Virus record (IMG/VR): IMGVR_UViG_3300027759_000528
Location: 1 to 20,495 of that record
Direction: 5' to 3' (one strand)
Source: a virus
Length of the DNA: 20,495 bases
The notes under the pieces were generated by a model. The model was not told the DNA's origin and did no database searches. It saw only the letters and a program-made list of their open reading frames with translations. Position 1 is the stretch's first letter, and the number at the start of each line of letters is the position of its first letter. Below, piece after piece: positions 1,298 to 6,662 of the stretch. The translations under genes and the position numbers were made by a program.

Positions 1298-1629
1298 ACG
1301 ACGAAGAATTTGATAAGACCGTTGCCGAGTGGCAGCAGCGTTTCGACGAACTGCACAGCAAGCTCGCCTCGAAAGACCGCGAGATCATCCGACTGTCCCT
1401 GATGAAGGGGGTGACCGCCCGCTACCGGGAACGCTGCAAGGTTCTGCGCGAAGAGCTGGCCCAATTCAAGATTACCGAGTCCAAACTGCAAGAGGCCATC
1501 ACCCAAGTCCAATCCCTGACCAAAGCCTTGGCAGCGGTCACCGAATCCGAGCGACTGGCCAAACTGGGAAATGCGTTGAAAGACGACCGGATCTCCCGCT
1601 TACTGGCCGACAAAGACTCACCCATATGA
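1294..1629 (+). CDS. Small coiled-coil protein of unknown function
   Basis: The protein has 111 residues, beginning MNDEEFDKTVAEWQQ. It is almost entirely charged amphipathic helix, with heptad-like spacing of Leu/Ile/Val between about residues 5 and 105, so a coiled-coil or helical bundle is likely. The frame is open further upstream, but the ATG at 1294 is chosen because it forms an ATGA overlap with the preceding stop and because the upstream translation is out-of-frame shadow of the zinc-finger gene. The stop overlaps the next ATG as ATGA at 1626-1629. The family is not recognised. Position next to a possible small-terminase gene allows, but does not show, a role in packaging or its regulation. 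Confidence 0.75.
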   Translation: MNDEEFDKTVAEWQQRFDELHSKLASKDREIIRLSLMKGVTARYRERCKVLREELAQFKITESKLQEAITQVQSLTKALAAVTESERLAKLGNALKDDRISRLLADKDSPI

Positions 1630-2123
1630 CCCGCAGCGAAATCAATCGACTGAACGGCCTTAAAGGGGGCAACCCAAACCTCTCTGCCCAAAGGAAGGCG
1701 CAGAAAAGAACCTACGAACTGGATGCCGTCATCGACGAATTTGCCGAGCGGGCTATCGCTGGTAAGTCGGTCCCACGAACAGGCTCGACATGTAAGCCCA
1801 TTACCGGGGATGATCGGGCCATGATCCAACGAGTGGTAGGGGCATCTGCCGAAGAGTTTCAGGCTCTGTTCTCCGAACGTCTGCGTTCTCTGGCCGACAT
1901 GGCCGTAGACCGTATTCAGGAGAAACTGGCCGAGGGCGGACAGAAGTTGAGCGACCTCAACATGACACTGGCCATCTCGGTGGACAAGCTGGCAGCCATG
2001 AACTCCAAGCCCTCTCAGGGCAACCTGAGCGTCCAGATCAACAACTACGGCGACATGAGCCGGGAGGAGCTTCTCTCCTCTTTGAGAGGAGAGAAGAAGG
2101 TCATCGACCTCGACGTTATTTAG
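1626..2123 (+). CDS. Putative small-terminase-like or DNA-packaging accessory protein
   Basis: The protein has 165 residues. A basic N-terminus (LNGLKGGNPNLSAQRKAQKR, about residues 9-28) is followed by helices and then a segment reading LAISVDKLAAMNSKPSQGN (about 115-133). That segment resembles the conserved region of phage helix-rich proteins often found before large terminases. The start at 1626 overlaps the previous stop (ATGA). If it is TerS it would recognise the packaging site, but it is separated from TerL by a reverse-strand cassette of about 2.8 kb, which is unusual. Assignment rests on general resemblance and position only; an unrelated DNA-binding protein is possible. The stop codon overlaps the convergent gene's stop, and a perfect 12-bp hairpin lies within the last codons. 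Confidence 0.55.
   Translation: MTRSEINRLNGLKGGNPNLSAQRKAQKRTYELDAVIDEFAERAIAGKSVPRTGSTCKPITGDDRAMIQRVVGASAEEFQALFSERLRSLADMAVDRIQEKLAEGGQKLSDLNMTLAISVDKLAAMNSKPSQGNLSVQINNYGDMSREELLSSLRGEKKVIDLDVI
2070..2096. other. Perfect 12-bp stem-loop near the convergent gene ends
   Basis: CTTCTCTCCTCT (2070-2081) and AGAGGAGAGAAG (2085-2096) are exact reverse complements with a 3-nt loop TTG. It lies inside the last codons of the forward gene, 24 bp before the point where two genes converge. Neither strand has a T-tract after it, so it is not a standard intrinsic terminator. It may protect mRNA ends, pause polymerase, or be a DNA site. Confidence 0.75.
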
Positions 2124-2605
2124 AACGCAGTCGTAGCCCTTGGCAGTTCGACGTAGAGGGGGTCTCCCAAAGACTTGGACAGCTTGACCGCTATCCGGTC
2201 CCGGGTGCGGTAAGGGAGACCCCGGGTCTTTTGCAGGGACACCTTCCGCCCGTCGTCGAGCTTCACGATGATCAGACTGGCGTTGGTGCATAGACCCCAG
2301 ACCTCGGCCTCGCACTCCACCGGCCACCCGTTCTCCAGCACCACCTCCTTCACCTCTGCCACCTCCACCTCCACCTCTGCCACTGCCACTGCCTCATCTT
2401 CCCCGAGATCCAGAGCCGCGAAGAACGGTTCCGAGGGGTTGTTGTAGATCAGGGGCAGTCGGGCGTCTTGGAGGTCAAAGCCCTCCTTGGCCGCGATGGA
2501 CTTGGCCAAGGCCAGATCCCCTTCGATCATGGCAGTGCGAACAGCGGACTTCTGTTTCGCCAAACGCCTCTTTGCTGCAAGCTGTTCTGGAGTGTGTTTA
2601 GGCAT
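2120..2605 (-). CDS. Hypothetical protein with acidic linker and C-terminal beta-rich domain
   Basis: The protein has 161 residues, starting MPKHTPEQLAAKRR. The N-terminal 45 residues are a basic helical region. A strongly acidic Glu/Val/Ala stretch follows at about 69-90 (alternating EVEVEV). The C-terminal part, about 95-150, has alternating hydrophobic residues (ASLIIVKLDDGRKVSL) suggesting a small beta-barrel or OB-like domain. The family is not recognised. The frame is open further upstream, but that portion is antisense-frame shadow of the glycosyltransferase gene, so the ATG at 2605, 7 nt after the upstream stop, is preferred. It is the last gene of the reverse cassette and converges on the forward gene with overlapping stop codons. 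Confidence 0.65.
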   Translation of the reverse strand: MPKHTPEQLAAKRRLAKQKSAVRTAMIEGDLALAKSIAAKEGFDLQDARLPLIYNNPSEPFFAALDLGEDEAVAVAEVEVEVAEVKEVVLENGWPVECEAEVWGLCTNASLIIVKLDDGRKVSLQKTRGLPYRTRDRIAVKLSKSLGDPLYVELPRATTAF

Positions 2606-2612
2606 GGGGGTT

Positions 2613-3410
2613 TTAGTAGCTGTCGAGGCAGAGAGAGTGGGTCGGGATGGAAGCGGGAGAACTGAGAGCTTCAGGGGTGATCGGGTACACGACGTCGCCC
2701 ACATGGCCCACCACTTGACGGGTGTCGCACCACAGCTTGAGTCCGGACTTGCGGGCCAGATGGCAGAAGCCGTAGTCCTCGCCCAGCAGTCTGGCCCCTC
2801 CTCCTCCCTCGATGTCGGTGTGCAGGATGTCCTGCATCTCGCGGAAAGTACCGGCCAAGGCCATCCGGGCCAGCTTCCCCTCCGGGGTGTTCGGACCCAC
2901 CAGCCCAATGGGGAATAGCTCGGTCATGGACTTGGTCTTCCCGCTCTCATCCTCGTAGTCGAACCTGCGCTCGGGGAAGAAGTCGACCATGTGCTGCAAG
3001 GCCGACACTGAGGTGGACAGCATGCCCGTGCCGACGAAGTCGCACTGGAGCAGTCCGTCCTCACGGACCTCGGCACCGGGCGTCTTCACGATCAGCCACG
3101 AGACCGGCCCACTCTTCTTCTTCACGTAGGGCGCAGCCACAATGTCCTCGTCACGGGACACCAAGGCCACCAACTGGGACGGGTTCCAGAACTGGTCCTT
3201 GTCGATCTGGACCAGCTTCCAGTAGCCCTGCTCAATGGCCGAGGCTGCCGCGATGTTGCGGGAAATGCTGATGGCCGAGTTGCCCGACTCCATCACGAAC
3301 TCAAACGAGTAGTCGGGATGGTCCATCCGCATCATCTGATCGTAGGACGAGAACCAGTAGTAAGGGACTCCACCTTTGGCGGAGCAGGAGACGAGGACAC
3401 GTTTTTTCAT
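2613..3410 (-). CDS. Putative GT-A-type glycosyltransferase
   Basis: The protein has 265 residues. The N-terminus MKKRVLVSCSAKGG is a beta-strand entry, followed by SRNIAAASAI (about 50-59) and a DxD-like metal/nucleotide-sugar motif in LVQIDKDQFW (DKD at about 70-72). CDFVGTGMLSTS (about 123-134), LLGEDYGFC (about 208-216) and a W-x-DTR-x2-VGHVG segment near 227-238 complete the pattern seen in phage GT2-like transferases, in which an (E)D acts near the C-terminal half. The predicted role is transfer of a sugar from a nucleotide-sugar donor; donor and acceptor are unknown. It is cytosolic, with no membrane segment. The start codon overlaps the upstream stop as ATGA (3407-3410). Co-occurrence with a methyltransferase in the same operon suggests glycan modification and methylation of one target, which is inference. 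Confidence 0.7.
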   Translation of the reverse strand: MKKRVLVSCSAKGGVPYYWFSSYDQMMRMDHPDYSFEFVMESGNSAISISRNIAAASAIEQGYWKLVQIDKDQFWNPSQLVALVSRDEDIVAAPYVKKKSGPVSWLIVKTPGAEVREDGLLQCDFVGTGMLSTSVSALQHMVDFFPERRFDYEDESGKTKSMTELFPIGLVGPNTPEGKLARMALAGTFREMQDILHTDIEGGGGARLLGEDYGFCHLARKSGLKLWCDTRQVVGHVGDVVYPITPEALSSPASIPTHSLCLDSY

Positions 3411-3631
3411 GGTGCGGTCAAAGCGAGGAAAACTTCATCCGAAAAATCTTCTGCCCCTTTTCGGGAGGAGAACCCGATGCTGTAAGTCGCGGCGGCCATG
3501 GTGATGGTCACGCGGAACGACCACTGCATTTTCAGCCAGAGCCACTTCTTCGCAATCACCACGCCGTGGAGTTGACTGACGGGGATGATGTCACCCGTGG
3601 ACAATTTGACGAAGTCTTTACGGGAGTTCAT
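3407..3631 (-). CDS. Small beta-rich protein, possibly PH-like
   Basis: The protein has 74 residues, starting MNSRKDFVKLSTGDIIPVSQ. Alternating hydrophobic strands are followed by a C-terminal helix (SSRKGAEDFSDEVFLALTA). The order resembles small phage and bacterial proteins with one PH-like or GRAM-like fold, which typically open with an FVKLxTGD strand and end with a helix after a beta hairpin. This is pattern-based only. The open frame continues upstream, but the ATG at 3631 overlaps the upstream stop (ATGA, 3628-3631) and the longer version is shadow. Both junctions are 4-bp overlaps, so it is translated as part of the coupled reverse operon. Confidence 0.65.
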   Translation of the reverse strand: MNSRKDFVKLSTGDIIPVSQLHGVVIAKKWLWLKMQWSFRVTITMAAATYSIGFSSRKGAEDFSDEVFLALTAP

Positions 3632-3915
3632 GCGAAGAGTTTCTCCGAAGCCCGCAACGCGAAGACCTGCCACACCCCGGCATTGCCCTTGAAGTTGCCC
3701 ACATACCGGGCGTTCTCGGGAGTGAGCGTTTGATCCACCGTAAGCATAATGATGTCCACTTTCTCCGTTGTCCGCTCCTTGTCCTCCAAGGTCCACAGGA
3801 GGCAGTTGTTGTGGCGGATGTCCAGATGGACGTCGAGCAGCTTGCAATGCAGCGGCAGATCCAGCGTCTGACTGGGGAGAATCTTGATCGAACGGGCTTG
3901 GATGGTTTGGCTCAT
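3628..3915 (-). CDS. DUF7352-like small phage protein
   Basis: The protein has 95 residues. The layout is an N-terminal Ile/Leu strand (SIKILPSQTLDLPLHCKLLD), then a strand pair ending NNCLLWTLED, then YVGNFKGNAGVWQVFAL near the C-terminus. This resembles the small family labelled DUF7352 in phages, whose members read roughly L-P-x-G-A-x-I-L, then LWAL, then a Y-x-G-T ... W-H-V-F ending. The function of that family is not known to me. Start and stop overlap both neighbours by 4 bp (ATGA). The family match is from memory of the pattern, not a search. Confidence 0.6.
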   Translation of the reverse strand: MSQTIQARSIKILPSQTLDLPLHCKLLDVHLDIRHNNCLLWTLEDKERTTEKVDIIMLTVDQTLTPENARYVGNFKGNAGVWQVFALRASEKLFA

Positions 3916-4175
3916 GGTTGGATATGTTGGTGGGTGACCCAGCGGTGGGAAAGAACCTCACCGTTTTTCCGGGCATCATTCAAAAGATCTTCCCCCATAA
4001 TCTCAATGACCAGCATGGGGTCCATGTGGGGATGGATGAGACCAGCACACACCTGTTCAGTGTTGCCCGAGGCGTTGAGCCGGATCTGGGAGGGGTCTGA
4101 AACACCGCTTTCGATCACTCGCTCGGTGATGTCCCCGGCGTAGGTCACGATTAACTGCAACGTCTGGCAATTCAT
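3912..4175 (-). CDS. Hypothetical small protein in the reverse cassette
   Basis: The protein has 87 residues, beginning MNCQTLQLIVTYAGDITERV. Two alternating hydrophobic segments (residues 5-15 and about 50-58, PMLVIEIMG) suggest a small alpha/beta or beta-sandwich fold. No membrane segment, signal peptide or known motif is visible. It is placed between the methyltransferase and the DUF7352-like gene with ATGA overlaps on both sides (4172-4175 and 3912-3915), which is the main evidence that it is real. The family is not recognised. Confidence 0.65.
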   Translation of the reverse strand: MNCQTLQLIVTYAGDITERVIESGVSDPSQIRLNASGNTEQVCAGLIHPHMDPMLVIEIMGEDLLNDARKNGEVLSHRWVTHQHIQP

Positions 4176-4819
4176 GGCTTGGTCAGCAGACCGAAGGTGT
4201 TGTTGTCGACAGCTTCAAAGCTGCTCCACAGACCTTGCTCGGATACGAACCGCAGCATGGCCGCGTACACGTCAGGATAGGTTGTCAGGTCATCGACCAG
4301 CATCACCCCACCCTTGCGCAGCAACGGCCAGTAGTCGCAGATGTCCTGATAGGCTGCCCGAAAAGTGTGCGAGGCGTCGACGTAGATGATGTCAGCCACC
4401 ACCTCCGCAGCACCCAGCAGGATGGCCCCTTCGGCAGAGGTGTTGACGATGGGCACCACCCGGTCTTGCAGGCCACGGGACTTCATGTTCGTCAGGAACT
4501 GCCAGTAGGTCATGGGATGACCGTTCTGGCGGAGGATGGTGTACGTCTGGGAGTTGTTCAGGACTGCCTCCGCAGACTCCAGCCAAGTGTCGACGCAGTA
4601 GAGTTTCCCCTCCGCCCCCATGGCCCCGGCCCAACGCACTGCCGATCCGCCTTTGTGCGAGCCGACCTCAATGACCACCTTGGCCTTCAACTTCCCGACG
4701 AGATCATCAAAGACCGGCGAGAGCGCGGAGGGGAAAGTCTGGCCGTCGAACGGCAGCTTCAGATCTTCAACGCGGTCGTAGACGGAGGCGTCGGGCAAGA
4801 TATGTTTTACGGAGGACAT
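4172..4819 (-). CDS. Class I SAM-dependent methyltransferase (Methyltransf_24-like)
   Basis: The protein has 215 residues. Motif I (VVIEVGSHKGGSAV, about 48-61) is the glycine-rich SAM-binding loop. CVDTW (about 75-79) supplies the acidic residue expected at the end of strand 2. IIYVDASHTFRAAYQDI (about 144-160) and LLRKGGVMLVDDL (about 166-178) are the remaining core strands. The YVDASH-then-helix layout is typical of methyltransferase family 24, which often acts on small molecules or sugars; the acceptor here is unknown. No DNA-methylase catalytic motif such as DPPY or a PCQ loop is present, so DNA modification is not supported. It ends in an ATGA overlap with the next gene. Its start lies inside the RHH gene in another frame. 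Confidence 0.85.
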   Translation of the reverse strand: MSSVKHILPDASVYDRVEDLKLPFDGQTFPSALSPVFDDLVGKLKAKVVIEVGSHKGGSAVRWAGAMGAEGKLYCVDTWLESAEAVLNNSQTYTILRQNGHPMTYWQFLTNMKSRGLQDRVVPIVNTSAEGAILLGAAEVVADIIYVDASHTFRAAYQDICDYWPLLRKGGVMLVDDLTTYPDVYAAMLRFVSEQGLWSSFEAVDNNTFGLLTKP

Positions 4820-4928
4820 GGTTTACTTCAGCGGGCGCAGACCGGGAACTCTCCAACATGGCGGCAAGCATCAAGGGTTCTACATCCTTGGCGATCCGTA
4901 CCTGTCTCAGTTTGGGGGTCTTGGCCAT
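4767..4928 (-). CDS. Small ribbon-helix-helix (RHH) DNA-binding protein
   Basis: The protein has 53 residues from ATG 4928. The basic N-terminus holds a strand RQVRI (8-12), followed by helix A (about 15-28, DVEPLMLAAMLESS), a turn SAPA (30-33) and helix B (about 33-46, AEVNHVLRKTYLAR). This strand-helix-turn-helix layout with an Asn-x-x-Leu pattern matches small RHH regulators of the Arc/CopG/MetJ type, which bind palindromic DNA as dimers. Longer starts exist upstream but fall within the palindrome at 4937-4967. The 3' third overlaps the methyltransferase start in another frame (4767-4819). It would be the first gene of the reverse cassette and may autoregulate. Without homology evidence this stays moderate. 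Confidence 0.55.
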   Translation of the reverse strand: MAKTPKLRQVRIAKDVEPLMLAAMLESSRSAPAEVNHVLRKTYLARRLRLRPR

Positions 4929-4936
4929 TGAAGAAC

Positions 4937-4967
4937 TTGACAATGTTGCATTTTGCAACATTGTCAA
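4937..4967. promoter_or_regulatory. Perfect palindrome between divergent genes (candidate operator)
   Basis: TTGACAATGTTGCA (4937-4950) and TGCAACATTGTCAA (4954-4967) are exact reverse complements around a TTT spacer. It lies 8 bp from the RHH start on one side and 12 bp from the TerL start on the other. Both arms contain a TTGACA hexamer facing inward. It could be an operator for the RHH protein, or a stem-loop in either leader RNA. Confidence 0.8.
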
Positions 4968-4979
4968 CAGCTAAACCCG

Positions 4980-6662
4980 ATGGCCTCCAGCATTCAATAC
5001 GCCGACAAGTTCCAGCCCCGGTTCGGCGTACCGTGGGTGCCACCGTTAAAACCGGAGCAACTGGCCGCGATGTCCGATGCGGAACTCCGGCAGTACGTCT
5101 CCCATCGCAAGATGGTCGAGGCCAAGATGCAGGAGAATCCCGTGGGCTGGGGCTGGGCACCCCCGGTCTGGGATCAGGTGATGGACGCTTGGCCGCACTA
5201 CAACGTCCACGTACTTCTGGGGGGCAACCAAAGTTCGAAGACCACGCTCGGCGCACGCATGACGGTCTGGGCTGCCTCGACCATCCCCGAGGCCGAGGTC
5301 TACGGCTTTCACATCTCCGACCGACGGTCAATCGACGACCAGCAACGCTTCGTCTACGAGTCCCTGCCGGAGAACCTGCGCAATGTGTCCACGAAAAAGG
5401 GTACGTATCACAGCCTTCAATACTCGCAGAAGAACGGCTTCACCGACTCGATTGCCATCCTCCCACCCTCCAAGGGCTACCGGAGGGGCGGCTCCATAAA
5501 ATTTTACAACTTCGCCCAGTTCTCTCAGAACAGCCAGATCATCGAAGGCATCAAGGCTCACTTCGTCTGGGCCGATGAAAAAATTCCCTACGACCTGTTT
5601 GAGACGATCCGCATGGGGCGACTGGGCACCTACCATGGCCGGATGCTGCTGACCTACACCGTCGTCGACGGTTGGAACGAGACCATCGAAAAGATCCTCG
5701 CCAAGACCCGCACCCTCAAGACCCGCTTCTGCAACCACCCCAAGATCATGGCCAATCTGCCGGTCATGCAGGAGAGCCTGTCGGTGGGATCCTGCTGCAT
5801 CCACTACGCTTGGACCGAGGACAACCCATTTACAGATATTACGGAGTTCATGAAGCTCTACGGCTCGGAGAGCCGGGAGGTCATCCTCGCCCGCGCCTAC
5901 GGAGTACCGACCAAGTCGGTCAGCTCAGCTTTCCCCCTCTTCAGCCGGGACGTCAACGTGGTCTCTCACGACGACCTCCCATGGCTGAAGCCCAAGTTCA
6001 ATGCCAAGGGAGGCGAGATCCCCTACCCCATCACCCGCTACATGGCCATCGACTTGGGCGGGTCCAAGAACTGGTGCATGCTGTGGGTGGCCATCGACGT
6101 GCGCGGGACGTGGTGGGTCTACCGGGAGTGGCCCGACGTCAGCTACGGCGACTGGGCGCTCCCCGGGGACAAGGAGGGTCCGGCCCAGAAGGGGATCGGC
6201 TTGGACATCAAGGGCTACGTCAGCCTCATCAAGGATGCCGAGGGGACGGAGAAGATCTTTGAGCGGTTCATCGACCCACGCATGGGAGCCGCCGAGCGCC
6301 AGACCAAGGACCGGGGAGCAACCACCATCATCTCGGACTTGGACGACTGCGGCATCAGCATGATCCCAGCCCCCGCAGCGGTCTCGGAGTCAGACCGGGG
6401 TGAGATCGAGGACGGCATCCAACTTATCACCAACCTGTTGGCCTATGATACCAAGAAGCCCATCGACAGCCTGAACTCCCCCCGCCTCTACGTGTCCGAC
6501 CGTTGCGAGAACTTCATCTACGCCATGCAGGAGTACACCGGCAAACTGGGAGGCAAGGAGCACACCAAGGACTTCGTCGACTGCCTTCGCTACCTGCGCA
6601 AAGGTGGGTGCGAGTATGTCCCTCCCGTCACCGAGGATCGCAACCGGACGGGCGTATATTAG
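4980..6662 (+). CDS. terL: Terminase large subunit (packaging ATPase and nuclease)
   Basis: The protein has 560 residues. The ATPase domain has Walker A GGNQSSKT (81-88) and Walker B HFVWADE (194-200, with D199-E200). The C-terminal nuclease domain, RNase H-like, begins YMAIDLGGSKN (D358), has a middle ISDLDD segment, and ends HTKDFVDCLRYL with D531 and D534, which fits a metal-binding acidic triad. It powers DNA translocation into the procapsid and cuts the concatemer; the partner is the portal. The ATG at 4980 is preferred to a TTG 27 bp upstream that lies inside the palindrome. There is no SD. It is the first gene of the long forward module and is followed 42 bp later by the portal. Length and motif order are normal for the family. 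Confidence 0.96.
   Translation: MASSIQYADKFQPRFGVPWVPPLKPEQLAAMSDAELRQYVSHRKMVEAKMQENPVGWGWAPPVWDQVMDAWPHYNVHVLLGGNQSSKTTLGARMTVWAASTIPEAEVYGFHISDRRSIDDQQRFVYESLPENLRNVSTKKGTYHSLQYSQKNGFTDSIAILPPSKGYRRGGSIKFYNFAQFSQNSQIIEGIKAHFVWADEKIPYDLFETIRMGRLGTYHGRMLLTYTVVDGWNETIEKILAKTRTLKTRFCNHPKIMANLPVMQESLSVGSCCIHYAWTEDNPFTDITEFMKLYGSESREVILARAYGVPTKSVSSAFPLFSRDVNVVSHDDLPWLKPKFNAKGGEIPYPITRYMAIDLGGSKNWCMLWVAIDVRGTWWVYREWPDVSYGDWALPGDKEGPAQKGIGLDIKGYVSLIKDAEGTEKIFERFIDPRMGAAERQTKDRGATTIISDLDDCGISMIPAPAAVSESDRGEIEDGIQLITNLLAYDTKKPIDSLNSPRLYVSDRCENFIYAMQEYTGKLGGKEHTKDFVDCLRYLRKGGCEYVPPVTEDRNRTGVY

Follow-up and report, generated by a model that had tools for sequence, protein, structure and literature searches.

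A 53-residue ribbon-helix-helix (RHH) protein, encoded divergently to the large terminase gene (terL) of the window (the whole 20,495-nucleotide, i.e. 20.5-kb, stretch analysed here), is predicted to be an Arc-like repressor that would repress its own cassette through a 31-bp palindromic operator and would probably also occlude terL; the probability of this model, taken as a whole, was estimated at about 0.7. Arc-like phage RHH repressors acting with an operator are a known kind of system, and what is unusual here is the position beside terL, in phages without a close cultured relative. The features concerned are the following:

1533..2123, plus strand: putative small-terminase-like (terS-like) gene, upstream of the inverted cassette, with profile homologues upstream of terL in most relatives
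2613..3410, minus strand: phrog_1574 family protein, glycosyltransferase-like (weak phrog_12406 match)
3628..4175, minus strand: two small cassette genes (3912-4175, no assigned family; 3628-3915, DUF7352)
4172..4819, minus strand: SAM-dependent methyltransferase (Methyltransf_24; Pfam PF13578, E 6e-18), the next cassette gene after RHH
4767..4928, minus strand: Arc-like regulator of the ribbon-helix-helix type, 53 aa (start codon ATG at 4928, last codon ending at 4770, stop at 4767-4769)
4937..4967, no strand: candidate operator of 31 bp, made up of two 14-bp half-sites TTGACAATGTTGCA in inverted orientation around a TTT centre; conserved TTGAC-N21-GTCAA
4980..6662, plus strand: terL, large terminase subunit (PHROG 2, E 9e-18), which opens the rightward structural block

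The methyltransferase gene overlaps the 3' end of the RHH gene by about 50 bp. The gene at 1533..2123 was named from its position, since it gave no Pfam or PHROG match.

On the basis of family matches, of a fold search that ranked Arc first and of purifying selection, the 53-aa frame is considered as a genuine RHH gene under selection. The window protein by itself had no match in Pfam or PHROGs; the set of eleven RHH relatives matched PHROG Arc-like repressor families (best value 2.2e-5) and the Pfam families FitA-like_RHH, Arc and RHH_1 (6e-4 to 7e-3), and a profile built from these relatives ranked Arc first against the PDB (E 2.3e-4). In the AlphaFold (AF2) model of the window protein (pLDDT 81.7), an N-terminal segment is followed by helices at residues 17-27 and 31-49, and the beta-strand, for which only a dimer would offer a pairing partner, is unassigned in the monomer. 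Foldseek searches with this model returned Arc as the top match, AmrZ and CopG also ranking high and most of the top matches being RHH proteins; the E-values are weak (0.36 for Arc), as is to be expected of a 53-residue chain. Residues R11, R29, E34 and N36 are invariant among the RHH proteins compared (R11 in 11/11, Q9 in 10/11), and R11 and Q9 align with R13 and N11 of Arc, in an alignment made by hand in this analysis, at predicted DNA-facing positions of the beta-strand. Three of the features expected in the Arc/MetJ ribbon-helix-helix superfamily, namely a profile match, a strand followed by two helices and conserved strand residues facing DNA, were thus found, and the RHH identity claimed in the original prediction was borne out by the family matches of the relatives and by the first rank of Arc in both the PDB profile search and Foldseek. 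The frame, on whose conservation that prediction depended, is conserved in homologues: 18 of the 23 nucleotide differences between the window and L010 over the first 36 RHH codons fall at third positions, and dN/dS against L004 is about 0.16, indicating purifying selection.

The perfect palindrome announced between the RHH and TerL starts is present exactly where it had been placed, with arms at 4937-4950 and 4954-4967 (TTGACAATGTTGCA and TGCAACATTGTCAA, 14 bp each) that are 100% complementary around the TTT centre, the RHH ATG (4928) being 8 bp away on one side and the terL ATG (4980) 12 bp away on the other. No other perfect inverted repeat of the window is as long; in 60 shuffled windows (first-order Markov, the entire window being randomised and perfect arms counted with a spacer of 0-10), the longest perfect arm was usually 8-9 and at most 12, versus 14 in the real sequence. 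The span first proposed for the regulator and its site (4767-4967) takes in an alternative TTG start inside the palindrome, a start that is unsupported by distant relatives. Perfection of the palindrome is unique to the window virus, with 1-2 mismatched pairs in close relatives and 2-4 in distant ones, one of which (L011) stands at 7/15 pairs. Contig 3300009183_000012, which has an identical palindrome and 100% identity over the matched stretches, is the same virus and was thus excluded as independent support.

Relatives were gathered using TerL as bait, which performed better than the short RHH profile (a scan of viral contigs with the latter retrieved close relatives only). Both the close relatives (L004, L005, L009 and L010) and L011, L012, L026, L044/L054, L066 and L144 carry a minus-strand RHH gene divergent to terL; in the carriers beyond the close relatives, TerL is 50-68% identical to that of the window and RHH occupies the same divergent place. 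Comparison of these sequences established membership of the RHH family and conservation of the predicted operator with the RHH gene, at one site per record. In 6 of 7 RHH lineages, L012 being the exception, a TTGAC-N21-GTCAA site, always 31 bp long, with half-site TTGACRRTGKKG (a consensus symmetrised over nine distinct sites), lies between the start codons, and none of the RHH-less TerL relatives (about 20 lineages, the majority) has it (6/7 vs 0/20, Fisher p about 2e-5, lineages being tallied by hand and some RHH-less rows being closely related). In the 1.11 Mb of loci compared, a total that includes overlapping and duplicate loci, TTGAC-N21-GTCAA occurs solely beside RHH starts; when N20-22 is allowed, exactly one site is present, always at the RHH start, in 11 of 12 records with an RHH gene (the longest being 56 kb), and in G001, which represents the window virus as a 51.7-kb contig, the next-best full-site match has 12 mismatches. 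The search for the palindrome in relatives, which had been suggested as a check, was therefore positive.

In the TerL tree, RHH carriers form two groups, L026/L044/L054/L066/L144 on the one hand and the window clade with L012 on the other, L011 being omitted because its TerL carries an insertion. Read off translations, this TerL (L011, 6001-8082) is interrupted in frame at the Walker-A motif (GGNQ|C...N|SGKT) in an intein-like manner, and L006-L009 have intein-like C-terminal ends (HHN|S) before SSKT, with an apparent homing-endonuclease-like sequence upstream. The gap of L012 (5911-5976) contains a degenerate variant, TTGACC-N24-GGTCAA around an inner dyad GTTGAGA/TCTCAAC, together with GTTTTGTC-N10-GACAAAAC. 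In L012, RHH is followed by a methyltransferase homologue; L004 lacks the methyltransferase but keeps RHH and the operator, and there a DUF7352 gene lies next to RHH. The genome of L011 has a second RHH gene (L154, 1948-2067, minus strand), whose upstream repeats are GTCAC/GTGAC boxes, not TTGAC.

The 31-bp site is the predicted RHH operator, and it was considered as RHH-specific given the co-occurrence, the phylogenetic footprint, the single site per record and the conserved predicted DNA-contact residues. Between the window and L004, L005, L009 or L010, the operator is identical at 29-30 of 31 positions, versus 7 of 20 in the flanking spacers (Fisher p 2e-6 to 1e-5). Among the nine distinct operators, T1 T2 G3 A4 C5 and G9 are invariant, and T8 and G12 each vary in 1 of 18 half-sites; Q9 and R11, the predicted strand contacts, are conserved, as are the outer arms of the operator. 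The inner arm differs by clade (GTTGCA in the window versus GGGGA in the L054 group), and so do the residues just before Q9, a co-variation that spans two clades only.

Among known systems, the Arc repressor of phage P22, the best profile match and the top Foldseek match, is likewise a 53-residue phage RHH protein, and the Arg of its DNA-contact strand is conserved in the RHH group of the window. Arc is encoded in the immunity region of P22 rather than next to the terminase; compared with the Arc operator of about 21 bp, that of the window is longer (31 bp) and has a different half-site. CopG/RHH_1 plasmid repressors and phage partition RHH proteins are alike in fold and small size (weak PHROG matches); in contrast to these, the window cassette has no partition or copy-control neighbours.

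Autoregulation by RHH is the best reading of these data, since both the identity of the protein and an RHH-specific operator are supported by comparison. Arc-like RHH dimers would bind the two inverted half-sites cooperatively on the predicted 31-bp operator, and its occupancy would limit expression of the leftward cassette, i.e. RHH, the methyltransferase, the DUF7352 gene and the phrog_1574 glycosyltransferase-like gene. Control of terL and the packaging genes by RHH is plausible because the operator fills most of the RHH-terL gap (31 bp of a start-to-start gap of about 40-51 bp): the same binding would probably occlude a promoter for terL and the downstream structural genes, a less certain step. 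Both directions might then be damped until the repressor is titrated or diluted, for instance by genome replication, and this timing role is likewise less certain. Several points count against the model: the lack of a visible sigma-70 promoter in the gap of the window or of L054, the degenerate site of L012, the asymmetric inner arms of L011, the window protein's failure to match Pfam or PHROGs, and the weak Foldseek values.

The alternative that survives best, rather doubtful in our estimation though a serious contender, is that RHH controls only its own cassette and that terL, unaffected, is transcribed by some other route, be it read-through, a phage-specific promoter or a start located further upstream, within the RHH gene. 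In L011 an extra plus-strand gene separates the operator from terL, and the operator remains at the RHH start, which favours such a restriction; control could still reach terL there as the second gene of that plus-strand operon. RHH-less relatives, in which terL lies beside the same inverted neighbour without an operator, point the same way, as does the sigma-70 promoter scan of the gap in the window and L054, in which no promoter was visible for terL. Given this lack of a recognisable sigma-70 promoter, and since leaders would be extremely short, transcription may begin within the opposite gene or from a promoter of another kind. Against exclusive autorepression, the operator lies 5-12 nt before the plus-strand start (and 3-8 nt from the RHH start) in every aligned lineage with a canonical 31-bp site, and it is so near both starts that it would overlap any promoter adjacent to either gene.

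The RHH-less layout consists of the terS-like gene (plus strand), the phrog_1574 glycosyltransferase-like gene (minus strand), a small plus-strand gene in most cases, and terL (plus strand). The inverted glycosyltransferase-like gene between terS-like and terL was observed in the window (1533-4928), L016, L020, L028, L032, L061, L078 and L139, and its presence in RHH-less relatives indicates that it predates the RHH layer or is more general. The small plus-strand gene (EWLIEPDIEGAREYARL...) lies directly 5' of terL in the RHH-less L028 (about 5800-5990), L032, L078, L020, L139 and L016, and is apparently missing from RHH-bearing lineages. Since RHH-less relatives keep the same inverted gene without the palindrome, the layout works without the RHH layer, which weakens the proposal of a switch between accessory and late expression. 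The original interpretation thus stands for the identity of the protein and, by comparison, for its specific operator, and extends to autoregulation by inference, but its switch overreaches the data. RHH and its predicted operator are best regarded as a local governor, either gained by or lost from the terS-like/inverted gene/terL layout. More tentatively, and with somewhat less than even confidence, we propose that a single bidirectional RHH operator, carried with the inverted cassette between the terS-like gene and terL, puts the terminase/structural operon of this uncultured phage group under a cassette-encoded repressor and would couple virion production to accessory-gene dosage.

The palindrome might instead form an RNA hairpin (a 5' leader or an attenuator) in one or both transcripts, and a perfect 14-bp stem with a 3-nt loop, 8-12 nt from both start codons, as well as changes on both sides of pairs 11 and 13 between clades, would suit this. 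Across the nine operators, pairs 6, 7, 14 and 15 are mostly non-complementary (at 6 and 7, no more than 3-4 of 9 sites have a Watson-Crick pair), a pattern that favours protein contacts over an RNA stem; moreover, base identity is constant in the outer arms, the site depends on the presence of the RHH gene, and no Rfam match was obtained. The hairpin reading, very improbable on these grounds, was rejected. A terminator scan found none, and the palindrome as a terminator was ruled out by the absence of a terminator-like T-run and by the divergent genes.

It is still less probable that RHH is the antitoxin of a toxin-antitoxin pair, and this was also rejected, even though many small autoregulating RHH proteins are antitoxins and FitA-like_RHH is among the weak Pfam matches. 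Neighbours of RHH are variable and non-toxin (the methyltransferase here, the DUF7352 gene in L004, others elsewhere), and no toxin family was matched in the tested cassettes, nor was the adjacent toxin of a type II system found. RelB, an RHH antitoxin, is an autorepressor whose cooperative dimers bind short repeated motifs in the promoter of its own gene, the relO operator consisting of four abutting 6-bp repeats (PMC2812701); the window, by comparison, combines two half-sites of 12-14 bp into a 31-bp dyad and lacks a toxin partner. Least probable of all, and rejected, is a packaging (pac/cos) or recombination site unrelated to RHH: the palindrome adjoins terL and occurs once per record, but TerL relatives without RHH also lack it, and in L011 it tracks the RHH gene, not terL.

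The closest phage record by TerL is 33% identical, and a tblastn search of RHH against cultured phages gave no meaningful match. Searching genome contigs with the TerL profile retrieved one 7-kb contig with the RHH-less layout, binned as Alphaproteobacteria (a bin label, which is no proof of host). On the longer contig from the window virus, the structural block includes a gene for a 2365-aa protein (L151, 2207-9304). Searches of the open-access literature turned up no description of an RHH regulator associated with terL.

These results single out, in a phage group without a close cultured relative, a specific pair of protein and predicted operator that lends itself to testing, and the half-site consensus makes the regulator recognisable in metagenomes. 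They suggest that an operon of packaging and structural genes can have an RHH repressor at its head, and that inverted accessory cassettes within late operons may carry their own control.
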